DNA of 64,000 nucleotides from an uncultured Bacteroidia bacterium (GTDB taxonomy: Bacteria > Bacteroidota > Bacteroidia > Bacteroidales > UBA932). The notes under the pieces are model-generated. The model was not told the DNA's origin, searched no databases, and saw only the letters and a list, made by a program, of their open reading frames with translations. The stretch is from contig CACZKE010000004.1 of the NCBI GenBank assembly GCA_902781705.1, forward strand, positions 62,001 through 126,000. The letters are read 5' to 3'. The position numbers and the translations under genes are program-made. Below, one piece after another: positions 1,764 to 7,564 of this stretch; within the stretch, counting starts at the first letter, position 1; each line of letters opens with the position of its first letter.

Positions 1764-1775
1764 GCTATCTTCCCG

Positions 1776-1912
1776 ATTAATTGTGTATAGCCCTCCATTC
1801 TGCACAGAATTGGACGTTTTCCGCCGATAATTGTGCATTTTACTTGTTCTGACACATATATTGGGTAAAGTTGCCAATTATTGTGTGTTGAGGTTGTTTT
1901 GACACAGTTTTC
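1776..1912. repeat. Left palindrome array, three units of 50 bp
   Basis: TTGTG begins at 1781, 1831 and 1881, an exact 50-bp period. In each unit CACA begins exactly 22 bp later, at 1803, 1853 and 1903. Each unit is thus an imperfect inverted repeat of the form AWTTGTGY-N-RCACA. The sequence between and outside the arms differs from unit to unit. The right arms read CACAG or CACAT, more decayed than in the right array. The array begins about 12 bp after the rpoN stop. Confidence 0.85.
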
Positions 1913-1997
1913 GGTTCGATGAACCTGTGTTGCGGGCAAGAAAAGCGTAAAGAATCAACGGAAACATAAAAATCGAACTGAAACAACGGCTCCGGCA

Positions 1998-2028
1998 TTT
2001 GATGGAATGCGGGTTTTGCGTATGTTTG
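1998..2028 (+). promoter_or_regulatory. Promoter of the transposase gene
   Basis: TTTG at 1998-2001 and TATGTTTG at 2021-2028 are 19 bp apart, matching the Bacteroidetes -33/-7 consensus TTTG-N19-TAnnTTTG. It lies 25 bp before the start codon, so the transposase has its own apparently intact promoter. Confidence 0.7.
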
Positions 2029-2053
2029 CCATCGGACAGAAAGACAGGAAGCG

Positions 2054-3007
2054 ATGGAACAGTATGTCAGACAACCGCCGATGACCGAACGGCAGATTGA
2101 ATGGATGCAGGAGCAGTTGTTCGAGGAGTCAGGCCCCTTTTATCAGCTCAGTACGAAGCCGCTGGAGAGCGGCTTGATTTTCACGGAGGACGAGGAGCGG
2201 CGAGTGGCTGTGAACCTGATAGCCATTTCTTCGAAAGAGTTTCGGATAGAAATCCTTGCTTATGCCCTCATGAGTAATCATTTCTATTTTATCGTCCGTG
2301 GGGAATTGAAGGAAGGCGTCGCTTTTTTCAACCGACTGAAGAAAAGACTGTCAAACTTCTTCTCGCGACGCGGGCGATCCGGTGTCCTGGACAACGTGGA
2401 GGTTGATCCGGATACACCGGCCATCAAGACATTGACACAGTTCCGGAACGAAATCGCCTACGTCATCCGTAACCCCTATGTGGCCCGGAACGATGTCAAC
2501 CCGTTGGCTTATCCTTGGTGCAGTGGATTCCTGTACTTTAATCCTTTGCTCTCCTACTTATTTGCCGAAGGAGTTAACGGATTGACCTACAAAGAGAAGC
2601 GGGAAATAACCCGTTCTCCCTATCCCGTGATGGATCCGTCATTCCGTGTTCGAGACAAGATGATTGCTCCGGAAACATTTGTGAATTACAAATTAGTGGA
2701 GCAGTTGTTTCCGAACGCACGCAAATTTACCTGGTGGGTATTCAAGAATGTCGAAGGACAGGTGGAAGTGGCTGACCGGCTCGGAGAGAAGCCGAACTTG
2801 AATGACGATGAACTATTCAAGACGGCCCAGCAGGCATGCCGTTTGCGATTCGGGTATGACAGTGTGAATGAACTGCCCCTTCCACAACGCAAGGAGCTGG
2901 CTCTCGAACTCAAGAACAAATGGAGCGCCACCAACAAGCAGATTGCCCGGATTGCCCGATTGGACCTGCGAGTTGTTGACTCCCTGTTTCCCCTGGCTGC
3001 AAAATAA
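2054..3007 (+). CDS. Y1 (IS200/RAYT-like) transposase with altered HUH motif
   Basis: The 317-residue protein resembles single-tyrosine transposases. The stretch EILAYALMSNHFYFIV at about 67-82 matches the family's HUH strand, normally NHFHLLV or NHVHLL. Here the motif is H76-F77-Y78, so the second metal-binding histidine is replaced by tyrosine. The helix EIAYVIRNPYVAR with candidate catalytic Y136 and the YPWCSG segment are conserved. A C-terminal extension of about 140 residues ends in a probable helix-turn-helix (NKQIARIARLDLRVVDS), as in REP-associated transposases. The stop codon TAA forms part of the first right-array palindrome. Codon usage is more AT-rich than in neighbours. Activity is uncertain because of the histidine loss. 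Confidence 0.82.
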   Translation: MEQYVRQPPMTERQIEWMQEQLFEESGPFYQLSTKPLESGLIFTEDEERRVAVNLIAISSKEFRIEILAYALMSNHFYFIVRGELKEGVAFFNRLKKRLSNFFSRRGRSGVLDNVEVDPDTPAIKTLTQFRNEIAYVIRNPYVARNDVNPLAYPWCSGFLYFNPLLSYLFAEGVNGLTYKEKREITRSPYPVMDPSFRVRDKMIAPETFVNYKLVEQLFPNARKFTWWVFKNVEGQVEVADRLGEKPNLNDDELFKTAQQACRLRFGYDSVNELPLPQRKELALELKNKWSATNKQIARIARLDLRVVDSLFPLAAK

Positions 3008-3140
3008 TTGTGCAGGGCCCTCCGATTCTCACAATTAGCGTTTATTTTAGCCAGAATTTGTGTATATGGCAACCTCATACACAATTATTCCTCGAAAAGC
3101 GTAATAATTGTGTCGACGCAGGTGTTTTGCACAATTTTCA
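3003..3140. repeat. Right palindrome array, three units of 50 bp
   Basis: TTGTG begins at 3008, 3058 and 3108 (period exactly 50 bp) and CACAA begins 22 bp after each, at 3030, 3080 and 3130. Arms extend to AATAATTGTG and CACAATTA, more perfect than in the left array. The first unit overlaps the transposase stop codon. The third is followed within 10 bp by the -7 box of miaB, and its 50-bp register ends at the miaB start codon. Confidence 0.87.
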
Positions 3141-3141
3141 T

Positions 3142-3149
3142 TAACTTTG
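3142..3149 (+). promoter_or_regulatory. Putative -7 element of miaB
   Basis: TAACTTTG matches TAnnTTTG and lies 6 bp before the miaB start. No -33 element at normal distance is seen; that position falls in the third palindrome unit, so the array may have altered this promoter. Confidence 0.5.
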
Positions 3150-3155
3150 TGCAGC

Positions 3156-6792: not shown

Positions 6793-6880
6793 AAAACTGT
6801 GTGTAAAGGGCTATAAAACACAAATATTGCTCGAAATCTCAGATATTTGTGTAAATCGGTCCGTTATGCACAATTATTAG
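6793..6880. repeat. Third palindrome array, two 50-bp units away from the transposase
   Basis: CTGTG at 6797 and TTGTG at 6847 are exactly 50 bp apart, and CACAA follows 22 bp after each (6819 and 6869). The geometry is identical to the two arrays flanking the transposase at 1.8 and 3.0 kb. It lies in the convergent gap between glpF and upp with no transposase beside it. Apart from the hairpin at 6753-6782 this explains most of the gap. Confidence 0.82.
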
Positions 6881-6910: not shown

Positions 6911-7564
6911 TTACCGTTTTCCGCCATAAGCAAGGTCGCCGGCGTCACCGAGGCCAGGGACGATGTAACTGCGGCCGGTGATTTCCTCGTCGACGGCCGC
7001 GACCCAGAGGGAGACGTTATCCCCGTAGCGCATGGAGAGCTGCTCCACGGCATAGGTGCTGGCGATGGGGGTGATGAGGTGGATGGCGGCCGGGTTGCCG
7101 CCTTCCTCGATGAGTTTGTCGATGCATACCTCGATGGAGGCGCCGGTGGCGATCATCGTATCGGCCAGCACGAGCGTCTTTCCCTCCAGCGAAGGAGTCA
7201 TGCAATAGTCCACGCGCATCTCGAAGTAGTCGCCGGCCCCGTACTTGCGGAAGGTCGCGAGGAAGGCCGCCTCGGCGTGGTCGAAGAAGTTCATGAAGCC
7301 CTTCTGCAACGGCAGGCCGGCCCGGAGGATCGTGCCGATTACCAGGGGCGTGTCGCAGGTGTTCACCGTGGCGATGCCCAGCGGGGTCGTCACCTCTTTC
7401 GGGGAGTACGCCAGTTCCTTGGACAGTTCGAGGGCGAAGACGGCGCCCACGCGCTCCAGGTTGGTCCGGAAACGCAGGCTGTCTTTCTGGATGCGGGCGT
7501 CCCGCATTTCCGCGAGGAAGTTGTTGAGAACGGAGCCGTTCTCGCCGAGATGATGGACCTTCAT
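6911..7564 (-). CDS. upp: Uracil phosphoribosyltransferase
   Basis: This cytosolic salvage enzyme makes UMP from uracil and PRPP. The 217-residue protein has the PRPP-binding loop LVLADTMIATGAS and the family's C-terminal uracil-binding end YIVPGLGDAGDLAYGG. RAGLPLQKG in the middle is also typical. Length is normal. It is convergent with glpF and lies downstream of radC, but a separate promoter overlaps the radC 3' end. Confidence 0.95.
   Translation of the reverse strand: MKVHHLGENGSVLNNFLAEMRDARIQKDSLRFRTNLERVGAVFALELSKELAYSPKEVTTPLGIATVNTCDTPLVIGTILRAGLPLQKGFMNFFDHAEAAFLATFRKYGAGDYFEMRVDYCMTPSLEGKTLVLADTMIATGASIEVCIDKLIEEGGNPAAIHLITPIASTYAVEQLSMRYGDNVSLWVAAVDEEITGRSYIVPGLGDAGDLAYGGKR

Follow-up and report, generated by a model that had tools for sequence, protein, structure and literature searches.

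Palindrome arrays with subfamily-specific spacing beside Y1 transposase-like genes in a genus of Bacteroidales

The question

In a 64-kb stretch of contig CACZKE010000004.1 from an uncultured Bacteroidia bacterium (Bacteroidales; UBA932), referred to here as the window, a gene for a Y1 (HUH-type) protein resembling the transposases of repetitive extragenic palindromes (REPs) lies between two arrays of three palindromes each. The first-pass annotation had read these palindromes as six TTGTG motifs, each with CACA starting 22 bp on, at an exact 50-bp period on both sides of the gene. The motifs are present in the sequence and the coordinates bear out the period in both arrays (Table 1). The locus raises the question of whether this spacing belongs to the Y1 protein, and what kind of assembly might keep it. 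The phenomenon is real, is not due to chance, is not unique to the window locus and is related to the known REP/RAYT systems.

Arrays accompany Y1 genes across one genus

Within the window itself, the + strand holds seven TTGTG-N17-CACA sites, the six named ones and one at 6847. Shuffling the window 300 times with dinucleotides preserved yielded 0.12 sites on average and never two sites 50 bp apart. The unit ends differ by side, reading CACAG, CACAT and CACAG on the left and CACAA on the right. When only exact matches are counted, TTGTG-N17-CACAA occurs five times in the 3.07 Mb genome, at the three right-array units and at two sites outside the element (window 6847 and G000:C6:7088); the reversed pattern, used as a control in the same genome, has no site.

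Homologue loci were gathered by genus searches with paralogues as queries, which gave partly overlapping lists, and were scanned for pairs of palindromes with matching arms, a match meaning that all four arms agree in 7 or more of 10 arm columns. Of 209 loci, 127 gave an array, while the 209 block-shuffled loci used for comparison gave none. Removal of 14 overlapping loci left 195 from 75 genomes of one genus, and in 116 of these an array lies no more than 900 bp from the gene. Grouped by the query that fetched each locus, which is not a tree-based assignment, the counts are 20/23 (window-like), 23/30 (L005-like), 27/30 (L008-like), 16/26 (L003-like), 11/31 (L006-like), 12/22 (L004-like), 5/30 (L015-like) and 2/3 (other); L018, L024 and L032 are scored as lacking an array, with weaker units visible by eye. 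The window's own genome has arrays at 10 of the 12 loci examined, with different arms.

The arrays lie close to the genes: array centres fall at 0-150 bp in 73 of 387 flanks, at 150-300 bp in 76 of 380, and at 800-1200 bp in 10 of 355. Control tiles of the window gave matches in 2 of 17 cases, the array tile and one other (156 bp), and rpoN loci from other genomes in 3 of 29, two of which (L221 and L223) look like gene-free arrays. The earlier proposal that the arrays belong to the transposase is supported both by this clustering near Y1 genes and by the retention of spacing while sequence changes (see below). Because gene-free arrays exist, an array alone is no proof of a neighbouring transposase gene.

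Of 149 genomes searched across the order, 2 gave matches at E<=1e-25, and both belong to the same genus as the window; a class-wide profile search of 295 genomes found outside the genus only short homologues (open frames of 112-247 aa, best E 6.5e-21). Among 19 such short-homologue loci (L251-L266, L268-L270), arrays above threshold are confined to L255 and L256, in each case at 52 bp and in L255 additionally at 65 bp.

Spacing is kept while the arms change

The arms are private to each locus. In subfamily A, which includes the window locus, no position exceeds 0.54 bits when each locus is counted once, in a test that aligns units on approximate centres and so blurs shared positions. Searching relatives for the TTGTG arm was set aside for this reason, and since arms are specific to each protein, a genome-wide test for TTGTG-N17-CACA would fail to capture the pattern. 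Orthologues have changed arms and have kept a spacing of 50 or 51 bp.

Each locus was given one period, chosen as the shortest whose score came within one of the top score. Subfamily A has periods of 50 bp (3 loci), 51 bp (13) and 52 bp (3), with the window locus scored at 100 by the scan; the period of L001 was changed by hand from 100 to 50 in later period tests. Across the survey, most periods (108 of 116) lie at 50-53, 62-66, 71-75, 82-85 or 125 bp, the rest being 39, 42, 48, 55, 68, 95, 117 and 132 bp. Periods are thus near-constant within subfamilies, and 50 bp, which the first-pass annotation took as the fixed phase, was rejected as a universal value since other subfamilies have other periods. 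The L008-like loci have periods of mostly 62-63 or 72-75 bp with a similar arm distance, and the step between the two is not exactly one turn. At L015, the spacers of a 65-bp array are also nearly identical, which suggests a recent tandem expansion.

The periods prefer whole helical turns (multiples of 10.4-10.5 bp). With protein clusters shifted as units, P is 1e-4 for clusters at 38% identity and 0.013 at 33%, and with each period mode counted once it is 0.011. The five modes seen in at least two loci fit best to 10.4 bp among seven repeats tried. When the phase is left free, in an analysis of periods up to 130 bp, the best-fitting repeat is 10.65-10.9 bp. The whole-turn cluster test also includes longer periods, and with them an exception, the L017 family, whose 132-bp period is off the grid.

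The spacing could instead be that of ordinary REP- or BIME-like tandem arrays beside a RAYT gene, with a period constant only by inheritance and a coincidental agreement with the helix. Several observations weigh on that side. In L021, L036 and L027 the array is a tandem repeat of near-identical units, periods are common to the members of a subfamily, and regular REP spacing has already been published for BIMEs and REP doublets (PMC2817692 and PMC3116915). Inherited tandem duplication also stays a live rival because the independent period modes are few. However, left and right arrays, like orthologous ones, diverge in loops and spacers without indels, and the distinct periods lie near a single 10.4-10.5 bp grid more often than chance. 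On balance this explanation seems unlikely, though it is the strongest of the alternatives.

The divergence itself can be seen by comparing orthologues. The claim that loops and spacers are not conserved holds for the window copy but fails for several relatives, in which both are conserved, and the divergence in the window copy looks like erosion. In the orthologue L247, the unit is almost perfectly palindromic (AATTGTGTAA..GGCC..TTACACAATT), the spacers are similar, and the period is still 50 bp. The right arrays of the window and L245 align over 149 bp without an indel, with identity at 42 of 45 arm positions and 82 of 104 others; the left array of L245 is rearranged, with a single stretched unit visible. 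The window arrays are probably eroding more outside the arms and spacing than inside them.

Conserved arms with a variable interior and spacer, as in the window copy, might also suggest a transcribed array with the loops serving as guides, like CRISPR or TIGR arrays. The interiors are nevertheless alike between units and between left and right arrays, and in the window only two tRNAs reach an Rfam gathering score. The guide reading was rejected on the similarity of interiors, and its probability is negligible.

Orientation of the palindromes

Judged by loop identity, neighbouring units in subfamily A are direct (head-to-tail) in 38 of 46 pairs, inverted in 3 and tied in 5; inverted doublets throughout were accordingly rejected for this subfamily. 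The L008-like units form inverted doublets in 30 of 34 pairs. The left and right arrays of a locus tend to repeat the same direction in subfamily A, where the direct comparison is best at 13 of 22 testable loci, the inverted at 2 and neither at 7. The corresponding numbers are 5, 0 and 1 for the orthologues (n=6), and 6, 8 and 15 for the L008-like loci (n=29). A GT[AG]G foot was found in 5 of 124 subfamily-A units on the left and, as its complement, in 7 on the right, which is not above the chance expectation of about 8%.

The Y1 protein

The window protein has a Y1 HUH core fold like that of 4er8 and the class 2 tyrosine signature Y-x3-NP (YVIRNP); Y136 and N140 are invariant across the A1 set, and the P of the signature varies in relatives. 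It scores 22.5 bits against NCBIfam NF047646, below the curated cut-off of 80, and NF033573, a check for IS200/IS605, matched 1 of 33 members. The C-terminal region is modelled as four helices, forming an extra helical domain with no match to the PDB at E<=0.001 among the matches listed. Each of five Pfam helix-turn-helix models matched 1 of the 33 members, weakly (E 0.06 or worse). The window's genome contains 12 matches to the protein at E<=10, and genome G044 has eight matches to the L015-type protein.

Both HUH histidines are present in the other 22 of 23 A1 members, with NHFHF in the orthologue L245 where the window protein has the H78Y change. Because of that substitution, cleavage activity is probably reduced or absent in the window copy. 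This, together with the position of the arrays upstream of both the Y1 promoter and the miaB start, would fit a Y1-like protein turned DNA-binding regulator of its own and neighbouring promoters, with the arrays as operators and no transposition. An operator role is hard to square with an element found at different places, with sites that lack it, with gene-free arrays away from the gene and with the histidines kept in nearly all A1 members, and it is considered improbable.

A proposed helically phased lattice

The explanation that we favour, with somewhat more confidence than doubt, is a REPtron-like element with arrays that would serve as a lattice, in phase with the helix, for binding to duplex DNA. 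The gene for the RAYT/TnpAREP-related Y1 protein has a copy of its own palindrome array on each side, and the two copies point the same way. With its extra C-terminal domain the protein would bind the palindromes in duplex DNA, and neighbouring complexes on the same face of the helix would join into one assembly, which might bring the arrays together in synapsis. The Y1 core would then act on single strands, mobilising the element or its arrays. Proteins lined up on one face of the duplex would need a spacing that stays at whole turns while the sequence changes; single-stranded hairpins alone would have no such need. The first-pass idea of a phased nucleoprotein array is strengthened in so far as periods cluster at whole turns; binding itself is what we infer.

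A broader possibility, put forward tentatively and with more doubt than belief, is that this HUH lineage acquired a code for recognising duplex DNA. Each protein would have its own palindrome "address", repeated at whole turns on both sides of the gene and in gene-free arrays, with about ten such pairs able to coexist in one genome and spacing selected more strongly than sequence. Published REP-transposase work, in the portions drawn on here, centres on single-stranded hairpins, whereas the whole-turn preference with replaced palindrome sequence points to a double-stranded assembly. Many natural protein-array pairs exist in the genus, about ten of them in the window genome, and they lend themselves to the study of joint changes of specificity in a transposase and its DNA sites.

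Relation to known systems

The comparisons with cited papers in this section apply to the parts of those papers drawn on here. RAYT/TnpAREP REPtrons (Nunvar 2010, PMC2817692; Quentin 2018, PMC6006769) share with the present system the Y1 HUH core fold, the tyrosine signature, a gene flanked by its own palindrome family and a patchy presence. They differ in that subfamily A has no GT[AG]G foot, the flanking arrays here are mostly direct rather than inverted, and the proteins here are of about 310 aa with the extra C-terminal domain and phased arrays specific to each subfamily. BIMEs and REPINs (Bertels and Rainey 2011, PMC3116915) likewise consist of palindrome clusters at fixed spacing with gene-free copies elsewhere; in contrast, subfamily A is head-to-tail rather than alternating or inverted (the L008-like loci do have inverted doublets), and few copies were found in the searches made.

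The TIRYT proteins, or TnpAY1 subclass 2.1 (Di Nocera 2013, PMC3733652; Quentin 2018, PMC6006769), are also longer, with a C-terminal extension and no GTAG repeats, but are flanked by terminal inverted repeats with GGGGWSAS, where the flanks here are mostly direct tandem palindrome arrays. TnpAY1 subclass 2.6 (PMC6006769) is likewise found in Bacteroidetes with atypical palindromes flanking the gene, but its median length is 179 aa, compared with about 310 aa here. IS200/IS605 elements are recognised by a short TnpA with several near-identical copies per genome, whereas the eight aligned paralogues in the window's genome are 18-53% identical to the window protein. The words "array", "periodic", "tandem" and "spacing" are absent from the main text of PMC6006769, and literature searches for RAYTs with helical phasing, direct arrays or Bacteroidales gave no match among the open-licence matches listed. 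The new part relative to REP/RAYT systems is the helical preference together with direct, private and subfamily-phased arrays.

The insertion between rpoN and miaB

The element occupies a block between the rpoN stop and the miaB start, and this block is present or absent depending on the genome. The two genes adjoin without gene or array in G034 (L216, with an ATGA overlap) and G003 (L217, with a 2 bp gap), and L247 is a third uninterrupted site, with about 24 bp from the rpoN stop to miaB. Only 3 of 30 rpoN loci examined showed miaB beside rpoN (G034, G003 and the window itself). The element at this site is common to the window and L245. The rpoN neighbourhood seems to have been used repeatedly, as two other genomes (L221, L223) also have what look like gene-free arrays there; their arms are like those of L036 at 51 bp, and GGTCCA at 52 bp.

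Inside the block, a leader of about 50 bp between the left array and the promoter is conserved in an alignment of the window with six relatives. The promoter candidate resembles the Bacteroidetes -7 box, TAnnTTTG.

Table 1. Features of the element and of the related gene-free array (window positions)
Feature	Position	Strand	Basis or remark
Inserted block between rpoN stop and miaB start: left array, leader, promoter, Y1 gene, right array	1764..3155	+	Uninterrupted rpoN-miaB sites in G034, G003, L247
Left palindrome unit 1	1781..1806	+	TTGTG-N17-CACA
Left palindrome unit 2	1831..1856	+	+50 bp
Left palindrome unit 3	1881..1906	+	+50 bp
Leader, left array to promoter (AAGAAAAGCG...ACTGAAACAAC)	1938..1989	+	Kept in window and six aligned relatives
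Promoter-box candidate TATGTTTG	2021..2028	+	Sequence
Y1 (HUH-type) REP-transposase-like protein of 317 aa, with Tyr in place of the second HUH histidine (NHFYF)	2054..3007	+	
Right palindrome unit 1, its loop resembling that of left unit 1	3008..3034	+	
Right palindrome unit 2	3058..3084	+	+50 bp
Right palindrome unit 3	3108..3134	+	+50 bp
Pair of units 50 bp apart with no transposase gene, located between glpF and upp	6797..6873	+	Corresponding place has a two-unit array in L245, L246, L248 and the whole element in L247

Gene-free arrays and the glpF-upp site

The units at 6797 (CTGTG-N17-CACAA) and 6847 form a second 50-bp pair in the window. Such gene-free two-unit arrays at 50 bp lie beyond glpF in four genomes (window, L245, L246 and L248), and their arms match those of the same genome's element, giving three arm types: TTGTG (window, L245), AAGTG (L246) and ATGTG (L248). 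In L247, the place that the gene-free array has in the other genomes, between upp and glpF, is taken by the whole element; in L246 and L248, the element lies between upp and miaB. The miaB-glpK-glpF block, with arrays at its ends, runs the opposite way with respect to upp in L246 and L248 as compared with L247 and the window, possibly through an inversion bounded by the arrays. At the end of the L246 locus, 13 bases resemble the opposite-strand reading of the rpoN terminus; this is compatible with an inversion, although so short a stretch is no proof. The glpF-side and element arrays thus mark rearrangement points, and the arms at the two places change together.

A 400-kb sample of the window's own genome, taken from three contigs chosen with prior knowledge that L006, L017 and L013 lie on them, gave 12 array matches: two at the L006 gene, three at the L017 gene, two gene-free L017-type doublets and five that look like chance or direct repeats. 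At L013 (G000:C6 ~6983-7114), two array families stand side by side, a gene-free CGTCCC pair at 51 bp, with arms like those of the L005 locus, adjoining a single TTGTG unit. The gene-free doublets at G000:C5 106037 and 137468 are inverted and of the TTGTACAA type, with arms like those of the L017 locus and a 132-bp spacing off the helical grid.
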